Of a DNA stretch of 33,120 nt, positions 1 through 32,850 are shown piece after piece (within the stretch, counting starts at the first letter, position 1; each line of letters starts with the position of its first letter). The stretch is from a bacterium (lineage in GTDB: Bacteria > Zhuqueibacterota > QNDG01). The stretch spans positions 1-33,120 of the forward strand of contig JAGGVB010000186.1 of NCBI GenBank assembly GCA_021158245.1, in the 5' to 3' direction. A program made the position numbers and the translations under genes. The notes under the pieces are model-generated. The model saw only the letters and a program-made list of their open reading frames with translations, had not been told where the DNA came from and searched no databases.

Positions 1-42
1 AAAGATCAGAAAGAAGAATCTTCCGATGATATTGAAGAGTAG
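1..42 (+). CDS. C-terminal end of an upstream gene (partial)
   Basis: The first 42 bases read in frame 1 as a 13-residue acidic tail (KDQKEESSDDIEE) ending in TAG. A perfect 10-bp hairpin follows about 55 bases later, as expected at the end of a transcription unit. Acidic, serine-rich tails like this occur on many proteins, including chaperonins and ribosome-associated factors, so the product cannot be named. The gene body lies outside the window. Confidence 0.4.
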   Translation, partial: KDQKEESSDDIEE

Positions 43-97
43 TCCATAATATCTTATATTTCTCTGGTGTTTTCACAATTCTTCAATAAATGAACTG

Positions 98-127
98 CGG
101 GAGCTGTGACTATAAGTACAGCTCCCG
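98..127 (+). terminator. Hairpin terminator after the upstream gene
   Basis: A perfect 10-bp inverted repeat (CGGGAGCTGT / ACAGCTCCCG) with a 10-base loop. Only a short T-poor stretch (TTCTGT) follows, so termination may be moderate or the structure may act otherwise. It separates the partial upstream gene from mtaB. Confidence 0.55.
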
Positions 128-176
128 TTCTGTAAAATGAATGTATGTTAAAATTTTATGGAAATTTTGTGAAATT

Positions 177-1475: not shown

Positions 1476-1529
1476 ATCCCTTTTTTTCTGGGTATAAAAT
1501 GATAAAGTATTCTATTGAGGCGCTGTACT

Positions 1530-1552
1530 GAAAAATGATTGATTCATTTTTC
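1530..1552 (+). terminator. AT-rich hairpin downstream of mtaB
   Basis: A 9-bp perfect inverted repeat (GAAAAATGA / TCATTTTTC) with a 5-base loop, 55 bases after the mtaB stop. The T-run lies in the right arm and is not downstream of it, so this is only a weak candidate terminator. The rest of the 1476-1763 gap shows no gene and, near its end, the hsp20 promoter. Confidence 0.35.
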
Positions 1553-1670
1553 AAAAAGAACTAAGAGACTGCCCCTTAATAAAAAGAGAATGTATTTGAT
1601 CTTAAACAATTATGAAACAAATCCTGCTGCAGAGAAGTAAAAAACAAGAACCATTTGAATCAAATTTATC

Positions 1671-1699
1671 TTGATTTTAGTTGCTATAAATGTTATAAT
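1671..1699 (+). promoter_or_regulatory. Sigma70-type promoter for hsp20-lon
   Basis: TTGATT (1671-1676) and TATAAT (1694-1699) with exactly 17 bases between them. The predicted start near 1706 leaves a leader of about 58 bases before hsp20. No CIRCE-type inverted repeat was seen. Confidence 0.7.
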
Positions 1700-1763
1700 A
1701 TAAATCTTAAAAGAAACACTTTGTTTTTTTGTTATAAATGGTAATTCGGAAAAGAGGCAAAAC

Positions 1764-2213
1764 ATGGATAAAACGAAAGTACACAGAATTAAAAGTGTGC
1801 TGAGTTCCCTTGATGAGGAAGTGGAATTCTTTTTTTCTGCTTTTTTTAACGGGACCTATCCTTCGATATATCGTGATGAGTTGTACTGGAAACCTCCTAC
1901 AGATGTTTATGAGACAGATGAAGCATTTGTTGTTGTTGTTGAACTTGCAAATATGAAATCCGATGAAGTGTCAATTTCATATCAGGATGGAATTCTAACA
2001 ATTCATGGGGTAAGACAGGCAGAAGCGCCGAGCGAGCAGAGAAGATATCATAAGATGGAAATAAATTACGGGCCGTTTGAACGTAAAGTTGATATTCCTG
2101 AAGATGTGGAGATTGAGAAACTTACGGCCAAGTATGAATTTGGATTTCTGGAAATAAAACTGCCTAAAAGAGGGCGTAATTCAGGAAAGATAATTGAAGT
2201 GGAAGTGGAATAA
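1764..2213 (+). CDS. Small heat shock protein, Hsp20/alpha-crystallin family
   Basis: ATP-independent holdase that binds unfolding cytoplasmic proteins and keeps them competent for refolding or degradation. The 149-aa protein has a variable N-terminal arm (~1-45), then the alpha-crystallin domain (~46-138) starting at PPTDVYETDEAF and ending in the family motif GFLEIKLPK. The C-terminus has an I-x-V type anchor (IIEVEVE) like those used for oligomer assembly. An AAGAGG ribosome site lies just upstream. The stop is only six bases from lon, so the two are almost certainly co-transcribed from the promoter at 1671. A holdase with a protease is a common stress pairing. Confidence 0.92.
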   Translation: MDKTKVHRIKSVLSSLDEEVEFFFSAFFNGTYPSIYRDELYWKPPTDVYETDEAFVVVVELANMKSDEVSISYQDGILTIHGVRQAEAPSEQRRYHKMEINYGPFERKVDIPEDVEIEKLTAKYEFGFLEIKLPKRGRNSGKIIEVEVE

Positions 2214-2219
2214 TAAAAT

Positions 2220-16818: not shown

Positions 16819-16836
16819 TTGTGATAACAAGCACAA
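16819..16836. promoter_or_regulatory. Probable Rex operator
   Basis: The 18-bp sequence TTGTGATAACAAGCACAA is an imperfect palindrome with outer arms TTGTG / CACAA. It matches the Rex box form TTGTGAANNNNTTCACAA except at three inner positions. It covers the expected transcription start (~16817) just downstream of the -10 box and 17 bases before rex, as expected for autoregulation by steric block. Confidence 0.75.
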
Positions 16837-16852: not shown

Positions 16853-17473
16853 ATGGATAAATCTATACCAAATGAAACTATTAGTCGCCTTTTCCCTTAT
16901 TTCAGAGCATTGATGTGTCTTGATAAACAGGGAACTGAAACTGTATCTTCTGCACGTCTCGCTGAAGTTTGTCGTGCTAATTCTTCAAAAATTAGAAAAG
17001 ATTTATCCTATTTTGGTGAACTTGGTACGCGCGGTGTGGGTTACAATGTAAAGGACCTGATGCAAAAAATTCGCACTATACTCAACCTTGATCCGATAAA
17101 AAATGCTGCTTTAGTAGGTGTCGGTAATATCGGAAAAGCATTGCTTAAGTATTCAAATTTTGAATTGGAAGGATTTAAAATTTATATGGCGTTTGACAAT
17201 AATCCTAAAATAATTGGGAAGAAAATAAATCATGTGATTGTTGAAGATGTAGTTAATATGAAAAAAAGAATAAAATCAGAAAAAATCAAACTGGGTATAT
17301 TAACTGTACCTGAACCAGTGGCGCCGGCTATTGCCAGGCGTATGGGAGATATGGGAATAAAAGCAATTCTGTCTTTTGCTCCATGCTCCCTCGCCATGCC
17401 CCATAATATAGAAATTACATGCGTTGATTTAAGCACGGAAATGGCCAAGCTAATTTATTATTCTTACAGATAG
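16853..17473 (+). CDS. rex: Redox-sensing transcriptional repressor Rex
   Basis: Dimeric repressor that senses the NADH/NAD+ ratio, releasing DNA when NADH rises. The 206-aa length is normal. The N-terminal winged helix (~5-75) includes the family block SSKIRKDLSYFGELGTRGVG. The Rossmann domain begins near 84 with NAALVGVGNIG (GVGNIG at 89-94), and a domain-swapped helix ends the protein. A Rex box overlaps its own start point. The next gene, mrpE of the Mbx-type operon, starts 45 bases after the stop with no terminator between, so NADH levels probably control the complex directly. Confidence 0.95.
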   Translation: MDKSIPNETISRLFPYFRALMCLDKQGTETVSSARLAEVCRANSSKIRKDLSYFGELGTRGVGYNVKDLMQKIRTILNLDPIKNAALVGVGNIGKALLKYSNFELEGFKIYMAFDNNPKIIGKKINHVIVEDVVNMKKRIKSEKIKLGILTVPEPVAPAIARRMGDMGIKAILSFAPCSLAMPHNIEITCVDLSTEMAKLIYYSYR

Positions 17474-17518
17474 CCATTTTCATATAAATGTTGATTCTTC
17501 GAGAGAGGAGAATTATTG

Positions 17519-18040
17519 ATGAACAAAGTAGCATATGAAACACCCCACCAGACAAGAAATTTCTTTTATCTGTTCTGTATACTTTTTCTGATATGGCTTG
17601 CACTCACTTCCAGTTTCCTATGGGAGGAACTTGCTGTCGGTTTTTTCATCAGCCTAATTCTTGCTTTAATGCTGAACAAAAACTATCCTTCCCTCGGGCT
17701 CCCCCCAATAAGCATTAAGAAGATCATCTTTTTTATCGTATTTATCCTTGTGCTTTTTAAAGAAATTGTAAAAGCAAATTTTGATGTAGCATATAGGGTT
17801 ATTCATCCTAAAATGCCTATAAAACCAGGAGTAGTAATAATTAAAACAGGGTTGAAACAGGATATTGCAAAATTAATACTGGCAAATGCAATAACGTTGA
17901 CACCCGGCACATTTACTCTGGACATTAAAGAGGACAAGCTTCTCATACACTGGATTTATGTCCGTTCGGAAGGTATAGAAGAGTCCACAAAAAATATTGG
18001 CGAACGATTTGAAAAATATTTAAAGGTGATATTCGCATGA
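17519..18040 (+). CDS. mrpE: Mrp antiporter subunit E-like (MbxA position)
   Basis: First structural gene of the Mbx-type operon. 173-aa membrane protein with three N-terminal helices (~15-65) and a cytoplasmic C-terminal part containing KPGVVIIKTGL and ANAITLTPGTFTLDI, the hallmark of MrpE/MnhE. ATG 17519 is chosen because GAGAGGAG lies eight bases upstream. Its stop overlaps the next ATG (ATGA). In Mbx and Mrp systems E, F and G form a small peripheral membrane module needed for ion transport. Confidence 0.92.
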   Translation: MNKVAYETPHQTRNFFYLFCILFLIWLALTSSFLWEELAVGFFISLILALMLNKNYPSLGLPPISIKKIIFFIVFILVLFKEIVKANFDVAYRVIHPKMPIKPGVVIIKTGLKQDIAKLILANAITLTPGTFTLDIKEDKLLIHWIYVRSEGIEESTKNIGERFEKYLKVIFA

Positions 18041-18297
18041 GTGAAACAATTATTTTAGTTTATTTAGCTGTTATTGGATTAGGACTGATTTTCAGCCTTT
18101 TGCGTATGCTTTTAGGGCCTACTGCTTCTGACAGGGCTGTTGCAGTGGATACTATTACTACAACTGTTGTTGCTTTACTGGTCATTTTATCCCTTGTATT
18201 TGACAGATATATTTATCTGGATGTTGCATTAGTCTATTCATTATTAGCTTTTGTCGGATTGGTTGCAATTGCCAGATATTTGGAAAGGGGCATTTAG
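18037..18297 (+). CDS. mrpF: Mrp antiporter subunit F-like
   Basis: 86-aa, three-helix membrane protein. The block LRMLLGPTASDRAVAVDTI is the MrpF/MnhF signature, with the conserved acidic residue in the DRAVAVD loop. It overlaps mrpE by four bases and abuts mrpG with no spacer, so translation is coupled throughout this part of the operon. Confidence 0.92.
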   Translation: MSETIILVYLAVIGLGLIFSLLRMLLGPTASDRAVAVDTITTTVVALLVILSLVFDRYIYLDVALVYSLLAFVGLVAIARYLERGI

Positions 18298-18630
18298 ATG
18301 GAATTATTGGGGATAATTATTATCGGGATTGGAGTAGCTTTTTTAATGCTTGGGAATTTTGGAGTGCTAAGGCTTCCTGATGTGTATAATCGCATTCAGG
18401 CAGGAACAAAGTGTACTACTTTTGGTGCTTTTTTCACTATTATAGGAGTAGGTATCATCCAGCCTGCATGGTTTTGGAAATGCTTACTTATTGCAGTATT
18501 TGTTTTTGCAACCAATCCTATTTCCAGTCATGCTATTGCAAGAGCTTCCAAGAGGGCAGGTGTTCCTCTTTGTGATAGAAGTGTAGTGGATAAGTCGAGG
18601 GATTTTAAGGAATACAGGGAGGAAACATGA
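18298..18630 (+). CDS. mrpG: Mrp antiporter subunit G-like
   Basis: 110-aa membrane protein with three helices. The family signature GVLRLPDVYNRIQAGTKCTTFG is present as two adjacent blocks near residues 22-43. A hydrophilic tail of ~25 residues ends in KEYREET. The start directly follows the mrpF stop and the end overlaps the next gene by four bases. Confidence 0.92.
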   Translation: MELLGIIIIGIGVAFLMLGNFGVLRLPDVYNRIQAGTKCTTFGAFFTIIGVGIIQPAWFWKCLLIAVFVFATNPISSHAIARASKRAGVPLCDRSVVDKSRDFKEYREET

Positions 18631-18866
18631 TAATAATAGTTTCCCTATTAGTATTTTTGATGATTGTTTCGGCAGTAGCAGCATATATTTTTAAAGATTT
18701 GATAAGTGCTGTTATTGCCGGTTGTATGGTAAGTTTGATAGCGGCAATTCTTTTTTATTTTCTTCAGGCACCGGATGTTGCCATGGCCGAAGCATCAATT
18801 GGTGCAGCATTGGTTACTGCTGTATTTATTATTGCTATCATACGAACGAAGAGGTATGAAGAATGA
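18627..18866 (+). CDS. MbhD-like subunit (DUF4040)
   Basis: 79-aa, about three-helix protein matching the DUF4040/MbhD family, which also occurs as a C-terminal piece of MrpA. The conserved helix runs through FLQAPDVAMAEASIGAALVTA (broken here for reading as FLQAPDVAMAEA and SIGAALVTA); its Asp and Glu residues lie within the membrane and are thought to belong to an ion path. It overlaps both neighbours by four bases. In Mbh and Mbx this subunit helps join the Mrp-like part to the NuoH-like part. Confidence 0.85.
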   Translation: MIIIVSLLVFLMIVSAVAAYIFKDLISAVIAGCMVSLIAAILFYFLQAPDVAMAEASIGAALVTAVFIIAIIRTKRYEE

Positions 18867-19546
18867 GAAAAATTATCGGACTGATTTTACTGATTATTGT
18901 TGCATGGGGAATCTTTTTATCAATACAAAAAATTCCTTTTGGTGAGCCAAAGACAAAGATTGGTAAGTACTATATTGATAATGGTAAACAACAAACTGGG
19001 GCCTCAAATATTGTTACTTCCGTGGTTGTAGGTTTCCGGGGTTTTGATACTTTGGGAGAAGTGACTGTACTATTTCTCGCTACTATTGGCCTGGGTGCTG
19101 TTTTAGGAACTTTAAAAAGAAAAGAAAAAATTAAAATAACACGGGCAAGTTTAATACTTCGTACAGGATGCCGATTTTTATTTCCGCTTATTCTTCTTTT
19201 TGGTTCTTACATTATTATTCATGGACATCTGACACCCGGCGGCGGGTTCCAGGGAGGCGCAGTTATCGCTTCAGCATTCCTTCTTGTTTATCTTGGATGT
19301 CCCGGGAAAAGAATTAATGAAATTGGAAGTAAAACAGCTGAATCTCTCGGCGGTTTAACTTTTGTTGTGCTCGGGTTAATCGGCCTGACAGCAGGCGGAC
19401 ACTATTTTCTTTATAATTTTCTGCCTAAAGGTGAATTCAATACTCTGTTCAGTGCAGGTCTGATTCCGATAATTTATATTGCAATCGGAATAAAAGTGGG
19501 GTCGGAATTAGCCGGGGTTATCGACCAGCTTAAGGAGGAAAGCTGA
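18863..19546 (+). CDS. Fused MbhE-MbhF-like subunit (MrpB-type C-terminus)
   Basis: 227 aa. The N-terminal ~90 residues resemble MbhE (the C-terminal piece of MrpA): a first helix, a loop with KYYIDNGKQQTGASNIV, then GFRGFDTLGEVTVLFLA. The rest matches MbhF/MrpB: LILRTGCRFLFPLILLFG, then HGHLTPGGGFQGGAVIA, the best-known MrpB signature. MbhE and MbhF are separate proteins in archaeal Mbh, so this is a natural fusion with no sign of frameshift. It overlaps the next gene by one base (TGATG). Confidence 0.85.
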   Translation: MRKIIGLILLIIVAWGIFLSIQKIPFGEPKTKIGKYYIDNGKQQTGASNIVTSVVVGFRGFDTLGEVTVLFLATIGLGAVLGTLKRKEKIKITRASLILRTGCRFLFPLILLFGSYIIIHGHLTPGGGFQGGAVIASAFLLVYLGCPGKRINEIGSKTAESLGGLTFVVLGLIGLTAGGHYFLYNFLPKGEFNTLFSAGLIPIIYIAIGIKVGSELAGVIDQLKEES

Positions 19547-19905
19547 TGAATTTTTTACATGATTACATCTATTACATAGGATCTTTCAGCCTCATATTTA
19601 TCGGTCTCTTTATAATGTTGACAAAAAGAAATCTCATAAAAGTAATTCTCGGGCTGAGTATCCTTGAAACAGGTGTAAATCTATTTATTATTTCTGTGGG
19701 ATATATTCACAAGGGAACGGCTCCGATCTTTTCAAAAGCAGGATTAGAAGCAAAAAACATGGTAGACCCTGTTCCACAGGCATTAGTGCTTACCGCAATT
19801 GTGATCGGATTGGCTGTTCTTGCTCTGGCTTTATCTTTGACAATACGCTTGTACGGCCATTACGGAACGCTCAACTTACAAAAAATTAAAGAGCAGCGCT
19901 GGTAA
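19546..19905 (+). CDS. mrpC: MrpC/NuoK-like subunit (MbhG position)
   Basis: 119-aa, three-helix protein. NuoK-family features are the short second helix with ILGLSILETGVNLFII, whose Glu is the buried ion-path residue, and DPVPQALVLTAIVIGLAV in the third helix, characteristic of the MrpC branch. The start codon overlaps the preceding stop. A 23-base gap follows before the first MrpD-like gene. Confidence 0.93.
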   Translation: MNFLHDYIYYIGSFSLIFIGLFIMLTKRNLIKVILGLSILETGVNLFIISVGYIHKGTAPIFSKAGLEAKNMVDPVPQALVLTAIVIGLAVLALALSLTIRLYGHYGTLNLQKIKEQRW

Positions 19906-19928: not shown

Positions 19929-21428
19929 ATGGGATATAACAATATGAATGAAATGATTAACTTCAATCCGGTATTATTAATCGTGGTACCGTTAGGCCTT
20001 GCCTTTTTAGTGCCGATCTTAGGATTTATATCGAAAAGAATTATTAAATGGATTCCGGTTATTGGATTTCTTTTTAATCTTATTGTTGCACTGTCGCTTG
20101 TGCCGCATGTACTTAAAGAGAGTATTATTGTAAAAATTGGAGGTTTCCCTCCGCCTTTCTGTATTAATCTTGTGGCCGGGCCTGTGGGAGTTTTATTATC
20201 TGTATTAATTTCTATCACTGGATTTTTAGTAGCCATTTATGCACTTAAATATATTCAAGAAGGTAAAGAACAATACTATCATATCCTTTATATGCTTCTT
20301 CTGACCGGGGCTACGGGAGTCGTTCTGACCGGGGATATATTTAATCTTTTTGTCTTCTTTGAAATTCTTTGTATTTCTTCCTATGCTCTTGTGGCTTATC
20401 TCGGAAACAAGGCAGGGATTGAATCTTCTATTAAATATTTAATTCAGGGTTCAATAGGATCAAGTTTTCTACTATTGGGGATCGGATTACTTTATGGCCA
20501 ATTCGGTACTCTTAATATGGCAGACCTTGCCAATCAGATTGGGGATATAAGTTCACCTGCGGTATTTGTACCGATGGCTCTGATGATAACAGGCCTCGGA
20601 ATTGAAGCGGCAATATTTCCTCTAAATGCCTGGCTTCCTGATGCACACTCATCTGCCCCGTCTTCAGTCAGTGCTGTTCTGTCGGGGATTGCGATTGAAG
20701 TAGGGGTATATGCTGTAATAAGAGTTTTGTTTACAATTTTTCATGTTTCAGATTTTTTGACATTTTTCCTGTTCATTGGATTATTGACCATATTAATTGG
20801 GGAAATGAGTGCATTTAAACAAACGAATATAAAAAGAATGCTCGCCTATTCCAGTATCGGACAAATTGGTTTAATCCTTTTTGCTTTTTCATTAGGCTCA
20901 CAATACGGAGTGACCGGCGGATTGTTTCAAATGATAAGCCACACACTGGGCAAAGCGCTGCTTTTTCTGGCAGCCGGCTTTATGATATACAGAACCGGTT
21001 CCATGGAAATTTCATCATTTGAAGGGCTTGGCAAAAAGATGCCCTACACTGCTTTTCTCTTTACCATAGGGGCATTATCCATCATAGGATTGCCGCCGTT
21101 TATAGGTTTCGCGAGTAAATTTACGATTATCAAAGCTGCTCTTGCAGAAAGGGAACTGCTGTTGGTGATTTTAACGGGGATTGTGCTGTTGGCAACCGTT
21201 ATTGAAGGCACCTACTTTTTTAGAGTAATACAGATGATCTATTTTAAAGAAGAATCTACATTAGCAGATAAAAAAGAAGCTCCTGCTGCCGGATTAATTC
21301 CAATGTTTATTTTTGCTGCATTAATTATATTTATCGGCATTTATCCTGGTTTTGTCATGAGAATGTTAAATTCAGCTGCTTCTGAACTTCTTAATAGTGC
21401 AGAATATATAAGGAGTGTATTAGGATGA
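19929..21428 (+). CDS. MrpD/NuoN-like antiporter subunit (MbhH position)
   Basis: 499-aa, about 14-helix proton-conducting membrane transporter family protein. The TM5 glutamate is E145 (FVFFEILCISSYAL). In TM7, where MrpD and NuoN/M/L carry Lys, this protein has E226 (GIEAAIFPLNAWLPDAH). In TM8 the usual Lys is E257 (SGIAIEVGVYAVIR). The TM12 Lys is kept as K342 with H338 (SHTLGKALLF). The charge pattern of the ion channel is therefore altered. An in-frame ATG at 19944 is an alternative start; neither has a strong ribosome site. It overlaps the next gene by four bases. Confidence 0.93.
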   Translation: MGYNNMNEMINFNPVLLIVVPLGLAFLVPILGFISKRIIKWIPVIGFLFNLIVALSLVPHVLKESIIVKIGGFPPPFCINLVAGPVGVLLSVLISITGFLVAIYALKYIQEGKEQYYHILYMLLLTGATGVVLTGDIFNLFVFFEILCISSYALVAYLGNKAGIESSIKYLIQGSIGSSFLLLGIGLLYGQFGTLNMADLANQIGDISSPAVFVPMALMITGLGIEAAIFPLNAWLPDAHSSAPSSVSAVLSGIAIEVGVYAVIRVLFTIFHVSDFLTFFLFIGLLTILIGEMSAFKQTNIKRMLAYSSIGQIGLILFAFSLGSQYGVTGGLFQMISHTLGKALLFLAAGFMIYRTGSMEISSFEGLGKKMPYTAFLFTIGALSIIGLPPFIGFASKFTIIKAALAERELLLVILTGIVLLATVIEGTYFFRVIQMIYFKEESTLADKKEAPAAGLIPMFIFAALIIFIGIYPGFVMRMLNSAASELLNSAEYIRSVLG

Positions 21429-23281
21429 GATTAGAAATAATATTAATAACTGCTTTCGGTGGTGCATTTCTCACATATTTTTCAGGGAAAATTTCATCTA
21501 AATTCAGAGATGTGTTTGCGGTGCTTGTTTCATTACTGCTCGTAGTAATTCTTTCCTGCCGTTATGGCGGACAAACGGAAGCCGTATCTTATCATAATTT
21601 TATGGGATTGTCACTAGTGCTAAGATTAAATCCCCTGGCTTGGTTTTTTGCAATTGCAACTGTCAGCTTAACGGCTTTGTCAATAATTTATTCTATAGAC
21701 TATATGAAAAATCGAGACAGAACAGATTACTATTATTTTATAATGTTATTGATAAACGCGAGCATGCTGGGCATTGTATTAGCGGGAGATTTACTGTCTT
21801 TCTTTATCTTCTGGGAAATAATGAGCTGGTCAACATTTTTATTAATAAGTTATAACAGGGGCCGGGCAATAGCGGCAGGAGAGAAATATATTGTCATGTC
21901 CCTGATTGGTTCAATGGCTATGTTAATGGGGATTGTGTCGATCTATTCGTTTACAGGTAGTTTAAATATCCAAATTATTGCCACTCAATTGCATACAGCC
22001 TCGTCAGGCTATAAGCTTTTTTTACTAATTATTTTCAGTGTTACTTTTGGAATAAAGAATGCTGTTATGCCATTACATACATGGCTACCCGATGCTTATA
22101 CGGAATCATCTACACCATTTTCAGCAGTACTTTCCGGAATGCTTACCAGAATGGGTATTTTCGGTTTTCTTTTAATTATGTATGTAATTATCGGAGCGAA
22201 AAGTACACTTCATACAGGCAAGGGATTTTTTAGTTTTAACACTATTCTTGCTTGGTTAGGTGCAATTACAATTGTTATTCCAACCTTTATTGCAATGCTG
22301 CAGAATGATGCGAAAAAACTTCTTGCTTGGCATGGTATCGGTCAGGGTGGGTATATGATTGTAGGAATTGCCTTTGGAACGAGTCTTGGTGTTGCAGGTG
22401 GAATTTTTCACACATTAAATCATGCGATATATATTGTGTTACTTTTTCTAAGTGTGGGAGCAATTGAGTACAGAACCAATGGCCTCAGAGATCTTAATTC
22501 TTTGGGTGGACTTTTTAAAAAAATGCCAATAGCATTCCTTGGAAGTCTTTTAGGAATCTGTGGATTAATTGGCCTCCCTTTGACGAACGGATTTGTTTCA
22601 AAATGGCTTATTTATAAAACTTTAATTCTTGGTAATGCACCGTTTCTCGCATTTGCAGCATTATTGGGGACTTGGGGAACGATCCTCTCAGTGTATAAAT
22701 TTTTACATAATTTATATCTTGGGCAACTTCACGAAGAACATAAAGAAATTAAAAAAGCACCACTTGCAATGCAGATTCCGATTGTTATCCTTTCTTTTGC
22801 CGTCCTGTTATTTGGGATTCTACCCGGACTGCCTTTAAAAGTGATTAATTCTATTATCGTTTCAGCCGGTTTTAACGCTTTGGATATATCAATCTGGGGA
22901 GTAGTCTCGGATACCGGAACATTAAATACGATTAATATTTTTGCAGCACTTGCTATTGTCGGGGCAATTGTTTCGTTTATTTTTAAAGCTGCCCGTAAAT
23001 CTACACTGGTTGATCAGTATGATAATTACGCGGCAGGTGCGGCAATTCCTAAAGAAAAATATAATTATACGGTTGATTTTTATGCCCCGTTTTATCGAAT
23101 GGTGAGACCGTTTCTCAAAGATTTTTTTGATCTGTTTTATCAAAAAATTGCAAAAGCAACAGACACTGCCTGCAATGCTGTCCGCAAAATTTACACAGGT
23201 TATGTGGGTAATTATGTGATGTACATTGTACTATTTTTAACATTTCTTATTTTAATTAAATTTAAATGGAGTCTATTTTAA
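21425..23281 (+). CDS. Second MrpD/NuoL-type antiporter subunit (MbxH' position)
   Basis: 618-aa membrane protein with about 14-16 helices. Key residues are E131 in TM5 (FFIFWEIMSWSTF), K211 in TM7 (FGIKNAVMPLHTWLPDAY), and R242 where TM8 normally has Lys (GMLTRMGIFGF). In TM12 the usual HxxxK pattern is NHAIYIVLLF, so the Lys is missing. Having two antiporter-like subunits separates Mbx-type operons from Mbh, which has one. The C-terminal ~100 residues form an amphipathic region plus a final helix, longer than MrpD and reminiscent of the lateral extension of NuoL. Overlaps are four bases upstream and one base downstream. Confidence 0.92.
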   Translation: MRLEIILITAFGGAFLTYFSGKISSKFRDVFAVLVSLLLVVILSCRYGGQTEAVSYHNFMGLSLVLRLNPLAWFFAIATVSLTALSIIYSIDYMKNRDRTDYYYFIMLLINASMLGIVLAGDLLSFFIFWEIMSWSTFLLISYNRGRAIAAGEKYIVMSLIGSMAMLMGIVSIYSFTGSLNIQIIATQLHTASSGYKLFLLIIFSVTFGIKNAVMPLHTWLPDAYTESSTPFSAVLSGMLTRMGIFGFLLIMYVIIGAKSTLHTGKGFFSFNTILAWLGAITIVIPTFIAMLQNDAKKLLAWHGIGQGGYMIVGIAFGTSLGVAGGIFHTLNHAIYIVLLFLSVGAIEYRTNGLRDLNSLGGLFKKMPIAFLGSLLGICGLIGLPLTNGFVSKWLIYKTLILGNAPFLAFAALLGTWGTILSVYKFLHNLYLGQLHEEHKEIKKAPLAMQIPIVILSFAVLLFGILPGLPLKVINSIIVSAGFNALDISIWGVVSDTGTLNTINIFAALAIVGAIVSFIFKAARKSTLVDQYDNYAAGAAIPKEKYNYTVDFYAPFYRMVRPFLKDFFDLFYQKIAKATDTACNAVRKIYTGYVGNYVMYIVLFLTFLILIKFKWSLF

Positions 23282-24216
23282 TGAAAATTATTGTACTGAT
23301 TATTTCGCCTATATTAGCTTTAATTACAGGAATGCTTTTTCTCGGTATATCCCGGAAAATAACAGCAAGAATTCAATGGCGGTACGGGCCGCCGCTTCTT
23401 CAGCCTTTCATTGATGTCATAAGGTCTTTCAGCCAGAAGAGCATCACTCATGGGTGGTTTTTTGATTTTGGAATTATATTATCATTGACAGGTTCATTTG
23501 TCCTTGTTTTATTTCTGCCGATTGGCAAAGTGTGCTCATTAACATCGGGCGGATTAATAGCCTTTATTTATCTTATGCTGCTGGGCCCCTTTGGTATTGC
23601 ATTAGCTGGAGCGGCGTCAGGTAATCCTAATTCCAGCCTGGGAATATCGAGAAAATTTTTACTTTCTCTCGGATATGAAATCCCCTTGATTTTAATTTTA
23701 CTGGCAATAATGACATATTATAATACAATTTCCTTAGTTGATATTGTAAAAACACAGAATATCTCCGGCTGGGCTTTTGGCTCCTGGGCTTTAGTGCTGC
23801 CCGGGCTGGCTTATATTTTGATTCTTCCTGCTATTCTTGGTGTACGGCCTTTTGAAGTTGTTAAAGCACCGCAAGAAATTTCTTCAGGTCCAGTAGCGGA
23901 ATTTGGGGGAAAACACCTGGCATTTTCTACTTTTCAGCACGCTTTACAGATGTTTATAGGACTTGGTCTTTTTGTGAATATTTTTCTTGGCGGCGGAGAT
24001 TTATTTGGACTATTTGCACCATTGACAGGAACGGTTTGGGGCAGTTTTTTGGGAATCATTATTTTCCTTCTGAAAATGCTGATTGTGCTGATCCTGACCC
24101 TTTTCATCAATGCAGTCTATCCCCGCTATAGAATTGAACAGGCTATGCAATATTTATGGAAGTGGCCGACATTAATCTCCTTTATAGGACTTATCATAGT
24201 GGTCTTAATTAATTAA
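23281..24216 (+). CDS. NuoH-like membrane subunit (MbhM position)
   Basis: 311 aa with about eight helices. It anchors the hydrophilic redox arm to the membrane and holds the start of the ion path. Signatures: ARIQWRYGPPLLQPFIDVIR (split as ARIQWRYGPP and LLQPFIDVIR) and RPFEVVKAPQEISSGPVAEF, which holds the acidic loop facing the NuoB/NuoD subunits. ATG 23281 overlaps the previous TAA and has GGAG nine bases upstream, so it is preferred over the in-frame ATG at 23266. Confidence 0.94.
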   Translation: MKIIVLIISPILALITGMLFLGISRKITARIQWRYGPPLLQPFIDVIRSFSQKSITHGWFFDFGIILSLTGSFVLVLFLPIGKVCSLTSGGLIAFIYLMLLGPFGIALAGAASGNPNSSLGISRKFLLSLGYEIPLILILLAIMTYYNTISLVDIVKTQNISGWAFGSWALVLPGLAYILILPAILGVRPFEVVKAPQEISSGPVAEFGGKHLAFSTFQHALQMFIGLGLFVNIFLGGGDLFGLFAPLTGTVWGSFLGIIIFLLKMLIVLILTLFINAVYPRYRIEQAMQYLWKWPTLISFIGLIIVVLIN

Positions 24217-24236: not shown

Positions 24237-24782
24237 ATGGATAGAAATCAAATAAGTAAATGGCTTAAACATCCCGGCAAAATGGCAAATAAATATTCCT
24301 TTCATGTTGTATATTTTTGCACGGGCTGTGGCATTATTGAAGTACCGCCCTCAATTACAACGCGTTGGGACGCTGAACGGTTTGGTATAATTCCCGTTGC
24401 CACTCCAAGGCAGGGAAATCTTTTTATGATTGCCGGATATGTTTCCACCAAGACACTTAAAGCTGTTATAAGAACCTACGAACAGATGCCGGAGCCGAAG
24501 TACACGGTTGCTTTCGGCTCTTGCCCGATAAACGGCGGAATGTATTATGATTCTTATAATACAATTACAAGTGTGGATAAATATATTCCCATAGACGGCT
24601 ATATCGCGGGATGCATGCCCAGGCCGGAGGCCATTTTTATAGGAGTGACTCATTTATGGAAACTGATTGATATGGACAAAGCTGACGGGTACAAGAGATA
24701 TAGACAAGATTATGAATTCTATCGTGCAAATCAGGAACAGCTTTTGGGTGACTTGGGCTGGCCTCCATTATTCAAAAAATGA
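24237..24782 (+). CDS. NuoB-like [4Fe-4S] subunit (MbhJ position)
   Basis: 181-aa soluble subunit carrying the terminal cluster next to the active-site cavity. Four ligand cysteines are visible: C28 and C31 (CTGCGIIEV), C96 (FGSCPINGG) and C126 (AGCMPRPEA). The spaced C-x2-C is the hydrogenase/Mbh form; the adjacent Cys pair is typical of true complex I. It has no signal peptide, as expected for the cytoplasmic arm. The order NuoH-B-C-D is that of Mbh/Mbx operons. Confidence 0.95.
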   Translation: MDRNQISKWLKHPGKMANKYSFHVVYFCTGCGIIEVPPSITTRWDAERFGIIPVATPRQGNLFMIAGYVSTKTLKAVIRTYEQMPEPKYTVAFGSCPINGGMYYDSYNTITSVDKYIPIDGYIAGCMPRPEAIFIGVTHLWKLIDMDKADGYKRYRQDYEFYRANQEQLLGDLGWPPLFKK

Positions 24783-24822: not shown

Positions 24823-25350
24823 ATGGAAGAACTAAAAAAGAAACTTTTAACGAATTTTAATGACCTTAAACTTAAAATTCATGATGAAAACAGGATGTTC
24901 ATTAATACAAAGAAAGAGGCGATAGTATCCCTTTTAAGTTTTTTAAAAAATATGGGATATGAACATCTGGCCCTTGTTTCCTGTAATGACTGGATAGATA
25001 AAGGAGAACTTGAACTGGTCTATATTCTTTCCGCTTATATGTCTGTTGATGAAAAACATCAGGAGAAAGAGAAAAGGAATATTATTATTAAAACAAGAAT
25101 TTCCCGGGAAGCCGCAACATTCATTACAGTAACCAGTATTTTTAAAGGAGCAGAACCGTATGAACGCGAACTGCATGAACTGTTCGGGATAAGATTTGAA
25201 GGGCATACACGTTTAACACCATTACTGCTTGAACGTGATTATGAAATCCCTCCTTTTAGAAAAGATTTTGATACTCAGAAATATGTTGACAATACTTATG
25301 GTCAGATTCCCTCGATAGAGGAAAGAAAGGCGAGACATGAGAGAACTTGA
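24823..25350 (+). CDS. NuoC-like subunit (MbhK position)
   Basis: 175-aa structural subunit of the hydrophilic arm. The NuoC/HycE-N signature is present as EPYERELHELFGIRFEGH, followed by LLLERDYEIPPFRKDF, which closes the domain. AAAGGAAA precedes the ATG at suitable distance. The last 14 bases overlap the NuoD-like gene, so the two are translationally coupled, in line with their fusion in many other systems. Confidence 0.93.
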   Translation: MEELKKKLLTNFNDLKLKIHDENRMFINTKKEAIVSLLSFLKNMGYEHLALVSCNDWIDKGELELVYILSAYMSVDEKHQEKEKRNIIIKTRISREAATFITVTSIFKGAEPYERELHELFGIRFEGHTRLTPLLLERDYEIPPFRKDFDTQKYVDNTYGQIPSIEERKARHERT

Positions 25351-26437
25351 ACTTTATTACGGTCCTCAACACCTTGGAATGGTCGGGAATTTCAGCATTA
25401 CTTTAAAAGTTCAAGGGGATAGAATAGTTAAAGCAGATGCCAATCCCGGATATCTGCACCGTGGTTTTGAAAAATTAATGGAACAGAGAACCTGGATGCA
25501 GAATTTTCCGCTGGTATGCAGAATTAATGTGATAGAGCCTGATCACATGGAACTGGTTTATTCAATGGGTGTGGAAAAGCTGGCCGGAATTGAACTTCCG
25601 GAAAGAGGGAAATATATCAGAAGTATTTATTGTGAAATGGCTCGTGTAGCATCACATCTGTTCGGATTATGGGCCTATTCTAATATGCTTGGTTTTGATA
25701 CTGTAGCGCAATGGGCCATGTACCATAGAGACCTTTTACTGGATATGTTTGAAGAACTGACAGGGGCAAGAGTCTATCATATATATATTCGTCCAGGCGG
25801 GGTAAGACGTGATTTCCCTGAAGGTTTTACAGACAGGCTCGTAGAAACTCTCCATAAAATCGGCGGAAAAGTACCGGATTATAACGAGACATTTTTTGAA
25901 AACAGGCTGTTTCAAAAAAGAGCCGAGGGCATTGGGATTATCACACGTGAGGAAGCTGTCAGCATGGGAGCTGTCGGGCACACGATTAAGGCAACAGGAA
26001 TGAAATATGATATAAGAAAAATTGAGCCCTATGCTGCGTATGATCAGGTTGAATTTGATATTCCGACCAGAAAAAATGGCGACGCCTATTCCAGACTCCT
26101 GACAATCAGGGATGATATGATAGAAAGTGTGCATATGATATTCAAACTTATTGATAAAATGCCTAAGAAGGGTGAGGTCTGCGCTAAAACACCAAATCCG
26201 TTCAAATGGACTATTCCAGAAGGTGATGCGTATGTACGATGTGAATCATCCCGCGGTGAGCTCGGACTTTATATGGTTAGTGATGGTGGGGATAAGCCTT
26301 ATAGAGTTCACTTTAATACGCCCTCCTATAATCATGGCTTGACAGTTCTTGAAAAAGCACTTGTAGGTGAGAGCGTTTCTGATGTAGGAAACATAATGAT
26401 GAGTTTATATGTTGTTGCTCCGGAAATAGACAGGTAA
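25337..26437 (+). CDS. NuoD-like large subunit without [NiFe] ligands (MbhL/MbxL position)
   Basis: 366 aa. The fold is that of NiFe-hydrogenase large subunits and NuoD: YYGPQHLGMVGNFS at the start, GYLHRGFEKLME, RVASHLFGLWAYSNMLG, RPGGVRRDFP, and RCESSRGELGLYMVSDGG near the C-terminus. Of the four Cys that bind [NiFe] in hydrogenases, only C61 of the N-terminal C-x-x-C is left (CRIN), and the C-terminal DPCxxC is replaced by VVAPEIDR. It therefore cannot be a hydrogenase. Like Mbx and NuoD it has an empty cavity that may reduce another acceptor or serve only for coupling. Confidence 0.94.
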   Translation: MRELELYYGPQHLGMVGNFSITLKVQGDRIVKADANPGYLHRGFEKLMEQRTWMQNFPLVCRINVIEPDHMELVYSMGVEKLAGIELPERGKYIRSIYCEMARVASHLFGLWAYSNMLGFDTVAQWAMYHRDLLLDMFEELTGARVYHIYIRPGGVRRDFPEGFTDRLVETLHKIGGKVPDYNETFFENRLFQKRAEGIGIITREEAVSMGAVGHTIKATGMKYDIRKIEPYAAYDQVEFDIPTRKNGDAYSRLLTIRDDMIESVHMIFKLIDKMPKKGEVCAKTPNPFKWTIPEGDAYVRCESSRGELGLYMVSDGGDKPYRVHFNTPSYNHGLTVLEKALVGESVSDVGNIMMSLYVVAPEIDR

Positions 26438-26459: not shown

Positions 26460-28322
26460 ATGTCTAATACTAGTTATTTAAATCCATTAAAAGCAGTGAA
26501 GTATCTGTTTAAAAAACCGCAGACACTGCAATATCCGTTTGAGACCAATCCAATTGCGGACAGATACAGGGGATTCCATAAAAATGATTGGGAAAAATGT
26601 ACCGGGTGTGGAAATTGTGCGGATATCTGTCCGAATAAAGCGATTGAAATGGTAAAAATAGATGAATTGGAGCCAATGCCTGATGAAGGCCGAAAAGATG
26701 AGAGACCGCAGATAGACTACGGCCGCTGCTGTTTTTGCGGTTTATGTGTTGATATTTGCCCGCCCGGTTCTTTGTCTCTTACAAAAGATTTCTTTCATAT
26801 CCATTTCGACACTAAGACCTTTACCTTTATTCCAAAAGACGAAAAACTGGAAAAAGATGTCTATAAATCCGAACAGGACTATTCCATATTTGCAGCCAGC
26901 CTGACTCATCGCAAGGAAAATTATGACGGCTTCTCGCCTGATATTCAATATGCCCTTTTTGAACCGGACAGAATTGAAATGCCTGAGATTGAACCGGATG
27001 AACGTAAACTTTCTTTTATTGAACAGGTGATCGGCTATGATAAAGATCAGGCCAGAGAAGAGGCAGGTCGCTGTCTGGAATGTAAACTCTGTGAAGAGGC
27101 ATGTCCGGCACATCTTAAAATATCAGATTATATTGATGCAATTTACAGAGATGACCCAAAAGAATCACTTGAAAAAATTTATGAAGATAACCCAATCCCG
27201 TCTATTTGCGGAAGAGTATGTATGGCACATTGTGAAGATGCCTGTTCTCTGCATATAAGAGGAGATTCTCTTGCTATTAGATGGCTTAAAAGATATGCGG
27301 CTGATCAGATCAAGAATTTTAAAGAAGAACTTGAAATCCGGCCAGGTGAACCTACAGGAAAGAAAGTCGGTATCATCGGTGCTGGCCCGAGTGGATTATC
27401 TCTGGCATATTTTCTGCGGTTGCAAGGTCATGAAGTGATCGTTTATGATGAGCTGCCCGGTGGAGGCGGTGCTATTAGAATAGGTCCGCCTGCATACAGA
27501 CTTCCTCTCGAAGCAATTGATAAAGACGTTAATTATATTAAATCTCTCGGAGTTGAATTTAATTTTAATACTAAAGTTGGGAAAGATATAAAATTTGAAG
27601 AAATCTTTAAGAATAATAATGCAGTTTTCCTTGGTATTGGAAATACAATAAGTTTCTCTACAAGAGTACCAAATGCCGAAAAATGTGTACTTGCTCTCGA
27701 TTTTCTAAAAGATAATAAGATCGGTGAATACAGAAAAGTAGGTAAACAAGTTATAGTTATAGGCGGCGGGAATGTCGCAATGGATGTTGCTCGTGAAACG
27801 GTACGGCTTCAGCAGATGCAGTATCCGGGTCAAAAAACAATTACAAAAACAGTATCCCTTGAAGATTGGCATGAATTACCTGCAACTGATTTGGAAGTAA
27901 AAGAGGCTAAAGAAGAAGGCGTCGAATTTAATCCTGCCTGGGGACCGAAAGAAGTTGTCCTTGATGATGAAGGAAATATTAAAGGATTAGAATGTAAAAA
28001 AGTAAAATCCGTCTTTGATGAAAAAGGAAAATTTGCTCCCGCCTTTAATGAAGATGAGATACAATTTATTGAAAGCGACATGATAATCGAGGCCATCGGA
28101 CAAAGGGCTGATTATTCATTTCTCGGTAAGCTCAGCGATGAACTGAAATTCACAGAAAGAAAAAAGCTTAAAGTAGATAAAAATGGTATGACTTCAATCC
28201 CAAAAGTGTTTGCCGGCGGGGATATTGTTAATATTAATTTAGATGCGGTAACTGCAATCGCAGATGCAAAAATTGCGGCAGAAGGCATAAATAAATTTTT
28301 ATTAAACAATAAAAATAAATGA
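26460..28322 (+). CDS. NuoI-like ferredoxin domain fused to GltD-type FAD/NAD(P) oxidoreductase
   Basis: 620-aa terminal subunit of the operon. Residues ~1-115 are NuoI/MbhN-like with two cluster motifs, C47-C50-C53-C57 and C90-C93-C96-C100. Residues ~185-290 are the GltD/NfnL-type N-terminal cluster domain (C205, C208, C211, C215 and C250, C254, C258, C262). A flavin domain follows with GAGPSG (307-312), the pyridine-nucleotide loop GGGNVA (435-440) and the closing GGD (586-588). The YRRxxxxMP segment that binds the NADPH phosphate in GltD-type enzymes reads SLEDWHELP (466-474), so NAD(H) may be preferred. The likely role is to pass electrons between a pyridine nucleotide or ferredoxin and the membrane complex; direction is unknown. 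Confidence 0.92.
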   Translation: MSNTSYLNPLKAVKYLFKKPQTLQYPFETNPIADRYRGFHKNDWEKCTGCGNCADICPNKAIEMVKIDELEPMPDEGRKDERPQIDYGRCCFCGLCVDICPPGSLSLTKDFFHIHFDTKTFTFIPKDEKLEKDVYKSEQDYSIFAASLTHRKENYDGFSPDIQYALFEPDRIEMPEIEPDERKLSFIEQVIGYDKDQAREEAGRCLECKLCEEACPAHLKISDYIDAIYRDDPKESLEKIYEDNPIPSICGRVCMAHCEDACSLHIRGDSLAIRWLKRYAADQIKNFKEELEIRPGEPTGKKVGIIGAGPSGLSLAYFLRLQGHEVIVYDELPGGGGAIRIGPPAYRLPLEAIDKDVNYIKSLGVEFNFNTKVGKDIKFEEIFKNNNAVFLGIGNTISFSTRVPNAEKCVLALDFLKDNKIGEYRKVGKQVIVIGGGNVAMDVARETVRLQQMQYPGQKTITKTVSLEDWHELPATDLEVKEAKEEGVEFNPAWGPKEVVLDDEGNIKGLECKKVKSVFDEKGKFAPAFNEDEIQFIESDMIIEAIGQRADYSFLGKLSDELKFTERKKLKVDKNGMTSIPKVFAGGDIVNINLDAVTAIADAKIAAEGINKFLLNNKNK

Positions 28323-28340: not shown

Positions 28341-28727
28341 ATGTTAAAATCATTAAAAGCAAAAGATATCATGATGAAAGAGATAATAACTATTGGACCA
28401 GATGCTCTATTAAAAAAAGCAATAAAAAAATTACTTGATAATAAAATTAGTAGTATGCCTGTAACAGATGACTCAGGAAAAATGGTAGGTATTATTTCTT
28501 GTGAGGATATTCTGAATTTAGCATTCGATGGTTATCTCAGTAGTACAAAAGTTGAGATGGTTATGACAAAGAATGTTGTTTATTTTGAACCTGATTCAAA
28601 TTTAGAGGAAATTGCTCTTGTTATTTCTAAAAACCATTTTCGTAGAATACCAATTATTAAGGATGGTAGAATAGTAGGAATTGTTTCGAGAAGAGATATC
28701 GTTAAAAATATATTTATGTCAATATAA
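28341..28727 (+). CDS. Tandem CBS-domain protein
   Basis: 128 aa consisting of two CBS domains (~8-60 and ~72-125): KAKDIMMKEIITI with GKMVGIISCEDIL, then VEMVMTKNVVYF with GRIVGIVSRRDIV. Such Bateman modules bind adenine nucleotides (AMP, ATP, NAD and relatives) and regulate partners. It has no catalytic or DNA-binding domain. It starts 18 bases after the oxidoreductase gene, so it may be the last gene of the operon and an energy-state sensor for the complex. Its ribosome site is poor and it looks more AT-rich than its neighbours; insertion into the operon end is possible (see the remnant at 28801). Confidence 0.88.
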   Translation: MLKSLKAKDIMMKEIITIGPDALLKKAIKKLLDNKISSMPVTDDSGKMVGIISCEDILNLAFDGYLSSTKVEMVMTKNVVYFEPDSNLEEIALVISKNHFRRIPIIKDGRIVGIVSRRDIVKNIFMSI

Positions 28728-30497: not shown

Positions 30498-31688
30498 ATG
30501 AATGGTAAGTGGGTAAAAGTAACTGTTTTTATAATGTTTATCTCTATAAACATTTTTGCTCAGAAATTTGATAATATTGCATTAACACCTCCAATGGGGT
30601 GGAACAGCTGGAACAAATTCGGCCCGAATATTAATGAAAAACTGGTAAAGGAAATTGCTGATGCTATGGTTTCTAGCGGGATGAAGGATGCAGGATACCA
30701 GTACATTGTTATTGACGATGGCTGGCAGTCAGGAAGAGATGAAAACGGTAATATTATTGTGAATGCTGAAAAATTTCCCAATGGAATAAAACCAGTGGTT
30801 GATTATGTACATTCAAAAGGATTGAAATTCGGTATATATTCTGATGCAGGGAGAAAAACCTGTCAGGGACTGCCGGGCAGCAGAGGATATGAATATCAGG
30901 ATGCCCGTACTTATGCAAAATGGGAAGTGGATTACCTGAAATATGACTGGTGTTCTCATGGGAAGCAGAATTCTGAAGCTTCTTACAAATTGATGAGAGA
31001 CGCTCTTTATAAGGCTGGAAGGCCCATTGTGTTCAGTATTTGTGAATGGGGCACAACAAAGCCGTGGCTTTGGGCAGGAGATATAGGCCATCTGTGGCGG
31101 ACAACAGAAGATATTCAGGACTGCTGGGATTGTGTAAATGATTGGGGAGGACTGGGCTGGGTTCTGATTCTTGATAAACAGGCAGGCCTGGAAAGTTATT
31201 CAGGGCCGGCACATTGGAACGATCCTGATATGCTGGAAGTCGGAAACGGGGGTATGACCATAAAAGAGTACAAGGCACATTTTAGTATGTGGTGTATGCT
31301 TGCAGCTCCTCTTATGGCAGGCAATGATATAAGAAACATGAGTGGAGATATAAAAAGTATCCTGACCAACAAAGAAGTTATTGCATTAGACCAGGATGCT
31401 CTGGGAAAACAGGCAGTAAAAATTACAGATACCGGAGATTATGAAATTTGGGTTAAAGAGCTGTCAGAGGGTGAACTTGCTGTTGCCTTTTTTAACAGAG
31501 GTGAAACACCTGTTAATGCAAAGATTCACTGGGGCTATTTTTTACGTAAATTTAAAATGAATAATGACAAGTATATTCTTAGAGATTTGTGGGAGAACAA
31601 AATTGTCGGGGATACAAAGAAGGTATATAAGAAAAAGATTTCCAGTCATGATCTTGTTCTCATAAGATTGGTAAAAGAAGCCAAATAG
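30498..31688 (+). CDS. Secreted GH27 alpha-galactosidase
   Basis: Hydrolyses terminal alpha-galactosides (raffinose-type sugars, galactomannan side chains). 396 aa. An N-terminal signal peptide (~1-21, cut after IFA) precedes the (beta/alpha)8 barrel: LTPPMGWNSWNKFG, VIDDGWQ, then the nucleophile D150 in YLKYDWC and the acid/base D205 in WRTTEDIQ, with HWNDPDMLEVGNGG further on. A short C-terminal beta domain follows. AACAGGAGG lies before the ATG. It has no sorting tail, so it may be periplasmic or released. A sugar-responsive operator candidate lies upstream and a secreted SGNH-type hydrolase follows. Confidence 0.95.
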   Translation: MNGKWVKVTVFIMFISINIFAQKFDNIALTPPMGWNSWNKFGPNINEKLVKEIADAMVSSGMKDAGYQYIVIDDGWQSGRDENGNIIVNAEKFPNGIKPVVDYVHSKGLKFGIYSDAGRKTCQGLPGSRGYEYQDARTYAKWEVDYLKYDWCSHGKQNSEASYKLMRDALYKAGRPIVFSICEWGTTKPWLWAGDIGHLWRTTEDIQDCWDCVNDWGGLGWVLILDKQAGLESYSGPAHWNDPDMLEVGNGGMTIKEYKAHFSMWCMLAAPLMAGNDIRNMSGDIKSILTNKEVIALDQDALGKQAVKITDTGDYEIWVKELSEGELAVAFFNRGETPVNAKIHWGYFLRKFKMNNDKYILRDLWENKIVGDTKKVYKKKISSHDLVLIRLVKEAK

Positions 31689-31773
31689 GGTTTTGCCAAT
31701 AATAATATTGATAAATATTTGAATAACCGGTATACGGATTAGCAATTTTCCCAAGAACAGAGGGTTGAAGATT

Positions 31774-32850
31774 ATGAAAAAAGTAATTATATTTTTATCA
31801 GTTTTGTTGGTAATCCATTCTTCAGATGCACAATCTCAAAAGTTCCGCAGCGGAGTATTTCTCCACCACTCAACAGGGAATAATATTTGGGAAAATAACG
31901 GCAGTTCCGTAACAGTACCGGACGAGATAGTTAAATATAACTCAGCGCATGGTTTTTCAGGTGAACAGGCAGTATCAATGACTGAGATGTGGTGGCCTTC
32001 AGGAGATAACGAGTGGTATACATGGTACAGAATTTTAAGGAACGAAGAGACTTCTGATGATATACGTCCAATTTTGCAGTCAAATAAGATAGTAGTTATA
32101 AAATCATGTTTTCCTTCTTCAAGTATTGAAAGTTACGGTACCGGTTCTGATACGTCTGATTTATATTCCAAAACAGTGTATAATTATAAATATCTCTGGC
32201 GGAAGATTGTAAGGATTATGGAGAAACATCCCCAAAACTATTTTGCAATTTGGACAAATGCACCTCTTGTAGCTGAACAGACAGACGATACGGAAGCTGC
32301 TCTGTCCGATCAGTTCTGTACCTGGGCTAAGGATACTCTTGCTGCCGGCCTTGATGATGAATTCGGAGTTTTTCCGAAAAATGTCTATGTGTTCGATTTT
32401 TTTCATAAACTGGCTGACAGTTCCGGGAAACTTCCGAATCAATATGCTGTTGATCTTGATGACAGCCATCCTAACACTTCTGCTACAGCACTGGTCGCAC
32501 CGCAGTTTGTAGATGAAATTTTTAATGCTGCAATTGATTATGAAAGTATGTACAGCGGCGAGAGAGATGAACGGATGTCTAACCCTGAATTTTTTCTGTT
32601 GGGCCGGAATTATCCGAATCCGTTTAATCCGATTACGATAATTCCATTTACTGTAAAGGAACCGTGCAGAGTAGTGCTTAAAATATTTTCCATTCAGGGA
32701 AAGCTTGTGTCAATACCTGTTGACCGTCTATATCAGAAGGGAGAGTATAAAGTAAAAATTAACTTTCATGATATGGAGTCAGGGTTGTATATTTACCGGA
32801 TAAAAATGAAGAATTTTATTGCTTCAGGGAAGATGATTTTACTGGAATAA
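31774..32850 (+). CDS. Secreted SGNH-type hydrolase with C-terminal sorting domain
   Basis: 358 aa from ATG 31774; the in-frame TTG at 31765 lacks a better ribosome site. A signal peptide (~1-19) is followed by an esterase-like domain: S33 in FLHHSTGNN as probable nucleophile, N162 in IWTNAP, and D229/H232 in LDDSHPN as the D-x-x-H end of the triad. Residues ~268-358 form the Por/T9SS-like type A sorting tail: LGRNYPNPFNPITIIPF, then IFSIQGKLV and SGLYIYRIKMKNFIASGKM. The protein is thus exported and probably surface-held or released by a type IX-like system. The substrate is unknown; a carbohydrate esterase acting with the neighbouring GH27 is plausible. Confidence 0.8.
   Translation: MKKVIIFLSVLLVIHSSDAQSQKFRSGVFLHHSTGNNIWENNGSSVTVPDEIVKYNSAHGFSGEQAVSMTEMWWPSGDNEWYTWYRILRNEETSDDIRPILQSNKIVVIKSCFPSSSIESYGTGSDTSDLYSKTVYNYKYLWRKIVRIMEKHPQNYFAIWTNAPLVAEQTDDTEAALSDQFCTWAKDTLAAGLDDEFGVFPKNVYVFDFFHKLADSSGKLPNQYAVDLDDSHPNTSATALVAPQFVDEIFNAAIDYESMYSGERDERMSNPEFFLLGRNYPNPFNPITIIPFTVKEPCRVVLKIFSIQGKLVSIPVDRLYQKGEYKVKINFHDMESGLYIYRIKMKNFIASGKMILLE

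Follow-up and report, generated by a model that had tools for sequence, protein, structure and literature searches.

The gene at positions 26460–28322 of the window (the whole stretch of 33,120 nucleotides analysed here) encodes a NuoI-like ferredoxin-type subunit and a GltD-type flavoprotein in a single chain. On balance, and with little better than even confidence, we read this fusion as the subunit through which electrons enter (or leave) a bacterial, ion-pumping variant of the membrane-bound sulfane reductase (MBS/Mbx) that is linked to NAD(H). Its cofactors, electron path, substrate, direction of operation and pumping are predicted from features that can be read in the sequence: the domains of the fusion, the gene order, the conservation of ligands, MBS-type site residues that fit neither quinone nor [NiFe] chemistry, the loss of an NADPH motif, and rex with its operator. 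Judged by these residues, the far end of the complex is probably an MBS-type sulfane-reducing site, a point absent from the first-pass annotation. The fusion and its neighbours are arranged as follows.

16819–16836, + strand: Rex-operator-like palindrome TTGTGATAACAAGCACAA, 16 nt upstream of the start codon of rex
16853–17473, + strand: rex, encoding a repressor that senses NADH/NAD+, immediately before the operon (NF003995, 229.5 bits; cut-off 126)
17516–18040, + strand: MnhE/MrpE-type antiporter subunit, MbsA position (PF01899, 8e-42)
18037–18297, + strand: MrpF-type subunit (PF04066)
18298–18630, + strand: MnhG-type subunit (PF03334)
18627–18866, + strand: MbhD-type subunit (PF13244 MbhD, 62 bits)
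18863–19546, + strand: MbhE and MnhB in a single chain (PF20501, PF04039)
19546–19905, + strand: MnhC/NuoK-type subunit (PF00420)
19929–21428, + strand: MrpD/NuoN-type antiporter-like pump subunit (PF00361, 2e-66)
21425–23281, + strand: second MrpD-like pump subunit (PF00361, 1e-59; NF006419)
23266–24216, + strand: NuoH/MbsM-type membrane anchor (PF00146, 2e-59)
24237–24782, + strand: NuoB/MbsJ-type subunit with a predicted three-Cys (C31, C96, C126) catalytic [4Fe-4S] cluster (best solved match 6u8y_J, 1.3e-65)
24823–25350, + strand: NuoC/MbsK-type subunit (PF00329, 3e-29)
25337–26437, + strand: NuoD/MbsL-type subunit (best solved match 6u8y_L, 4e-104)
26460–28322, + strand: NuoI-GltD fusion, ATG start, 620 aa, no internal stop; NuoI/MbsN part at residues ~1–120, linker at ~110–165, GltD/NfnB-type flavoprotein at ~166–620
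28341–28727, + strand: protein with two CBS domains (PF00571, twice)

The operon holds the complete MBS subunit set, comprising Mrp subunits, MbhD/E, two MrpD-like proteins and NuoH/B/C/D/I-like proteins. Two MrpD-like subunits are characteristic of MBS; MBH has one. Pfam annotation of the window genes revealed no NuoE, NuoF or NuoG in the operon, and a second flavin subunit of the NfnA or HydB type is absent from it as well. The two-CBS-domain protein, which also follows the fusion at twelve other loci (L029, L030, L034, L038, L044, L080, L083, L095, L100, L106, L111, L114), is a possible regulator of the complex and could sense adenine nucleotides. Further downstream (30498–32850), an alpha-galactosidase gene (Melibiase_2) is followed by that of a protein with a Por-type secretion tail.

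The first-pass annotation had described the ORF as a NuoI-GltD fusion with two NuoI-type cluster motifs at residues 47–100 and with flavin and pyridine-nucleotide loops behind the cysteines, and all of this was borne out. The reading frame is uninterrupted, and its Pfam domains are a Fer4 dicluster (43–103), Fer4_20 (185–286) and Pyr_redox_2 (302–601). The NuoI part carries C47/C50/C53/C57 and C90/C93/C96/C100, and the GltD part C205/C208/C211/C215 and C250/C254/C258/C262. An alignment of 66 homologues shows no variation at any of the 16 predicted cluster cysteines, and a chance pattern is therefore ruled out. Among solved structures the N part is closest to MbsN of the Pyrococcus furiosus MBS (6u8y_N, 8e-30), with the hydrogenase subunit MbhN far behind (6cfw_N, 9e-11), and the C part matches NfnL, NfnABC/Stn and the small chains of glutamate synthase. 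Distance matrices of the two parts correlate across the 66 relatives (r = 0.78, Mantel p = 0.001), as fits a long-joined, co-evolving unit. The family model NF010590 (PRK13984, 'putative oxidoreductase') covers residues 2–618 of 620 with its own positions 7–610 of 611; thus, the architecture is already present in databases, under a name that gives no function. With 685.6 bits the window protein lies under the curated cut-off of 946 and hence outside this equivalog.

An assembly artefact joining two genes, the objection raised at the outset, is excluded, because the full-length ORF recurs at this place of the operon in independent assemblies and the source genome contains a second copy. The latter (contig C134, positions 1–3454; L029) is 45% identical to the window copy and scores 900.4 bits against NF010590. 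It pairs with an MBS-type NuoD and is followed by a CBS-type protein, the locus being cut by the contig start. The fusion directly follows the NuoD gene in related genomes G005, G006, G007, G010 and G050, and also in G019, where the gene is cut by the contig end; cultured Halanaerobium has it in full length too (L071, L104). A scan of GTDB genomes returned at least 556 relatives, not each of them confirmed as full length. The survey of genomes and neighbourhoods that had been suggested was made on 80 loci taken from the matches listed: 77 of them, from more than a dozen phyla, have an intact fusion ORF. Where the flanking contig is long enough, its usual place is the operon end, after MnhE-MrpF-MnhG-MbhE/MnhB-MnhC-MrpD(s)-NuoH-B-C-D. 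Exceptions are L105, which has no detectable neighbours, L067, where the Mrp genes lie 3' of the fusion, and a few contigs that are too short. Two contigs labelled archaeal (L042, L056) may be binning errors. Across 59 related genomes, all eight NuoD genes of the MBS class (over 350 bits, the next class beginning at 232 bits) have the fusion next to them, and these are exactly the fusion-linked set. Thus, nearly all bacterial Mbx operons of this type carry the fusion, which is not peculiar to the window.

The surroundings of the fusion vary between lineages. Spirochaete-type fusions (L062, L063, L067, L072, L075, L088, L101) bear a C-terminal extension of ~150 aa with a rubrerythrin/ferritin-like helical look, and a similar stand-alone gene lies near the operon in 13 other loci. 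Bacteroidales-type loci (L083, L086, L087, L089, L090, L095, L096, L099, L108, L110) have a dihydroorotate dehydrogenase-like gene beside the operon. Neighbours resembling CoA-disulfide reductase or NSR occur at L043, L044, L065 and L102, a hint at sulfur that comes from few loci and from matches below cut-off.

The membrane core is of the MBS type. NuoD matches 6u8y_L at 4e-104 as compared to 1e-74 for complex I, and NuoB likewise matches its MBS counterpart (6u8y_J) far above complex I. In a gap-free alignment C28/C31/C96/C126 of NuoB correspond to C25/C28/C93/C123 of MbsJ with a shift of +3. The proximal cluster of MBS is catalytic and has three MbsJ cysteines as ligands, the fourth (C25) being too distant (PMC7684303). 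Of 54 relatives, 34 have Cys and 20 have Gly at position 28, whereas C31, C96 and C126 are conserved; this lends independent support to an MBS-like NuoB cluster with three predicted Cys ligands and a dispensable fourth cysteine. CxxC or GxxC motifs occupy the place where complex I has an adjacent pair of cysteines (CC). MBS is devoid of the complex I quinone residues H38 and Y87 (PMC7684303). In the window NuoD these residues (Nqo4 numbering) align with V16 and V65; all 70 aligned relatives carry V or L at residue 65. This NuoD has none of the four [NiFe] cysteines, both CxxC motifs being absent. The source genome, which is 95% complete, yielded no match to MqnA/D and none to MenD above cut-off when searched for a menaquinone pathway. 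It does encode Rnf (contig C171). A [NiFe] hydrogenase of group 4 with the motifs CGIC and CYCC has its own locus on contig C174, where NuoI is not fused, which indicates that the fusion belongs to the MBS-type complex alone.

The C part was modelled together with the rest of the chain by AlphaFold2 from the 66 sequences (mean pLDDT 90.5, pTM 0.85; less confident at residues 1–30 and in parts of 110–160). A Foldseek search with this model returned NfnL as top match (5jca_L, E 1.9e-46, TM 0.86 by target), and the modelled C part is of the GltD/NfnB fold. The FAD-proximal cluster of NfnB, dihydropyrimidine dehydrogenase and StnC has one non-cysteine ligand. At the respective position the fusion has K277, which is invariant in the 66 relatives. 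In the alignment NfnL has Glu in this place, dihydropyrimidine dehydrogenase Gln and NfnABC Lys; by co-linear numbering K277 equals K170 of StnC. K170 ligates the FAD-proximal cluster of StnC, whose electron relay is linear and non-bifurcating (PMC10482914). By analogy, the proximal cluster of the fusion is probably Lys-ligated, and we read its FAD as non-bifurcating. A bifurcating, NfnB-like flavin is disfavoured given a Lys instead of a Glu ligand and no NfnA partner. The earlier claim of an eight-cysteine GltD domain at residues 205–262 and four [4Fe-4S] sites thus holds for the eight cysteines, whereas two all-cysteine clusters in this domain are not required.

The identity of the nucleotide can be approached through the motif YRR, which follows the second GxGxxG in GltD and NfnL and is associated with NADPH. 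In the window fusion it is replaced by SLE, where the second Rossmann strand ends (461–466 in the model), and the Glu is kept in 64 of 66 relatives. In Rossmann folds, the motif at the end of the second strand usually indicates preference for NAD(H) or NADP(H). Based on this rule, the fusion is more likely to use NAD(H) than NADP(H). A built-in route to a pyridine nucleotide, as envisaged in the first-pass annotation, is the natural reading of a fusion to GltD; the hint at NADP(H) that lies in the name GltD was not sustained, NAD(H) being the likelier partner in view of SLE and rex. A minority of fusions (G005, G010, G050, L113) retain YRR and are predicted to be of the NADP(H) type. YRR-class fusions were also seen at L031, L033 and L034, and at L031 and L034 a giant MrpD-like protein (~1040 aa) replaces the usual two.

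Expression of the operon is predicted to be tied to the NADH/NAD+ ratio by rex and the operator-like palindrome in front of it. The form TTGTG-N8-CACAA, which was picked after inspecting the sequence upstream of rex, has only one exact match in the window (0.03 expected); a search for Rex sites with the palindrome TTGTTAANNNNTTAACAA gave chance-level matches only. Sites of the TTGTG-N8-CACAA type also precede rex at L037, L038, L051 and L052. Of the 27 loci whose contigs extend far enough upstream, 6 have rex linked to the operon. All six belong to the clade of the window, and for this clade alone the linkage agrees with an enzyme that uses NAD(H).

In the mechanism that we propose, NADH would reduce the FAD of the C-terminal GltD-type domain, from which single electrons would pass via the proximal and then the distal [4Fe-4S] cluster of this domain to the two [4Fe-4S] clusters of the NuoI part and on to the three-Cys cluster of NuoB. 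The latter would cleave S–S bonds of polysulfide or sulfane sulfur in a chamber under NuoD/NuoH, and this reaction would drive ion movement via the Mrp antiporter and the pair of MrpD-like pumps. In this model the docking place of ferredoxin in archaeal MBS would be taken by the GltD domain, in a role like that of NuoEFG in complex I. The standard potential of polysulfide is about −260 mV. With a potential of about −280 mV for NADH in cells (PMC10482914), scant energy is left for ion pumping at standard conditions, which counts against our reading, as does the possibility that ferredoxin still docks next to the GltD domain. The same small gap makes it plausible that the complex may run in reverse, NADH being made at the expense of the ion gradient. 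The literature yielded no measured activity for any enzyme of the fusion's family. Sulfur induces mbx of Thermotoga maritima (PMC9431562), and the fusion is found on contigs of Thermotogaceae (L069, L077, L102, L115) and of Thermosipho, which supports a link to sulfur. A putative Mrp-Mbx complex of Endoriftia, a gammaproteobacterial tubeworm symbiont, has likewise been linked to sulfur reduction (PMC11636981).

Two alternatives to an NADH:polysulfide enzyme retain ferredoxin as a partner. An ion-pumping ferredoxin:NAD(P)+ oxidoreductase comparable to Rnf, in which electrons flow from ferredoxin through the NuoI part to the GltD FAD and NAD+ while the Mrp arm conserves energy, would benefit from a driving force larger than that between NADH and polysulfide; it also suits a GltD flavin adjoining a ferredoxin-type subunit and the former designation of P. 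furiosus Mbx as a ferredoxin:NADP+ oxidoreductase (as cited in PMC6349859). We nevertheless consider it unlikely, because with both redox sites on one subunit the electrons would bypass the NuoB cluster and the chamber, the coupling site in MBS and complex I. Moreover, it leaves the MBS-type residues of NuoB and NuoD without a job, in a genome that already encodes Rnf. About as unlikely, or marginally more so, is a dual input, with ferredoxin and NADH both feeding the wire to polysulfide in a confurcation-like manner, or with the GltD part exchanging electrons between the pools and sulfur serving as sink. In archaeal MBS, ferredoxin delivers its electrons to the corresponding NuoI-like subunit (PMC7684303), and the energy problem would be eased; yet the operon lacks a second flavin subunit, and K277 points to a StnC-like, non-bifurcating FAD.

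The remaining explanations fare worse. The complex I-like architecture and the NCBIfam name of NuoD (NADH-quinone oxidoreductase subunit D; NF004739, over cut-off) would suit an NADH:quinone oxidoreductase with GltD in place of NuoEFG, but the replacement of H38 and Y87, a NuoB with CxxC or GxxC in place of CC and a source genome with no known menaquinone pathway render it improbable. Hardly any weight can be given to a membrane-bound [NiFe] hydrogenase of group 4g with NADH input, although hydrogenases of this group linked to Mrp were assigned to Cloacimonadota such as Celaenobacter (PMC8542988), whose fusion protein (L044) is, at 84%, the closest relative among the matches listed. The missing [NiFe] cysteines contradict such an identity for the complex, and the real hydrogenase is a separate locus with an unfused NuoI or, at L044, a separate gene set just downstream. 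Gene sets for [NiFe] group-4 hydrogenases adjoin the MBS-type operon downstream of the fusion at L040, L041, L044 and L046, and they are the likely source of the 'group 4g hydrogenase' labels attached to the whole region. Equally far-fetched is a biosynthetic GltD part, of the glutamate synthase type or other, that is unconnected with the membrane complex: the family names (gltA/gltD) speak for it, whereas the single chain with NuoI, the fixed slot after NuoD in every operon, the co-evolution of both parts and the absence of the glutamate synthase large subunit from the recurrent neighbours at the loci compared speak against it.

An NAD(H)-linked MBS variant also invites a broader view, which we put forward tentatively and with somewhat less than even confidence. 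The complex I superfamily may have gained an NADH-oxidizing module a second time, via the GltD-NuoI fusion, giving rise to a widespread, reversible and ion-pumping NADH:polysulfide oxidoreductase with natural NADH and NADPH versions and to a fourth type of input beside NuoEFG, FpoF and ferredoxin. If so, many anaerobes, among them uncultured phyla, cultured Halanaerobium and relatives of the Thermotogales, couple their NADH pool directly to sulfur via a relative of complex I, an MBS-type ancestor acquired its nucleotide module in a way that did not involve NuoEFG, and annotations as hydrogenases, plain NADH-quinone oxidoreductases or glutamate synthases need correcting. MBS, the GltD-type relays of Stn and NfnABC, and the full-length family model NF010590 are already known. 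A literature search, largely outside subscription journals, did not find the NuoI-GltD fusion described as the NAD(H) module of an MBS-type complex. A subunit of bacterial Mbx that binds nucleotides may already figure in the reviews of Mbx evolution by Schut and colleagues, and we claim no priority.

Each half of the fusion has well characterized counterparts. NfnB (NfnL; 5jca, 4ylf) shares the fold of the GltD part with its FAD and dinucleotide sites but has a Glu ligand in place of Lys, an NfnA partner and an intact YRR. AegA and YgfT of Escherichia coli (NF009408, NF009451) also join a ferredoxin-type dicluster to a GltD domain in one chain; however, the window fusion scores far under both cut-offs, and AegA and YgfT lie outside any Mrp-Mbx operon. 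With StnC of the Sporomusa transhydrogenase and NfnABC (8oh5, 9bov, 9n5u; PMC10482914) it has in common the use of GltD as a non-bifurcating flavin relay fused to iron-sulfur domains of the complex I type, the Lys at the proximal cluster and the spacing GRVC-x3-C-x3-C. StnC, by contrast, is fused to NuoG-like domains, belongs to a soluble complex and binds NADPH, whereas the window protein has NuoI as partner, is associated with a membrane pump and has lost the NADPH motif. Respiratory complex I shares the core subunits (NuoB-D, H, I, L-N) and the principle of a nucleotide-oxidizing module feeding NuoI; the window complex differs from it by GltD in place of NuoEFG, the lack of quinone residues and the Mrp arm. 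Closest is MBS, formerly Mbx, of P. furiosus (6u8y; PMC7684303), which has the same set of genes with two MrpD-like pumps, the same spacing of cysteines in NuoB, no quinone residues either and a similar NuoI-like sequence. Its last subunit is, as the first-pass annotation had pointed out for archaea, only NuoI-like: MbsN (6u8y_N) has 208 aa, is fed by ferredoxin and carries no flavin domain, and only the NuoI-like part of the fusion matched it, to which the window protein adds a GltD domain of 450 aa. The window NuoD, in turn, is devoid of the two remaining hydrogenase cysteines, C85 and C385. Since the NuoI part is fused here and MbsN stands alone, we refer to the window complex as a variant of MBS rather than as plain MBS.
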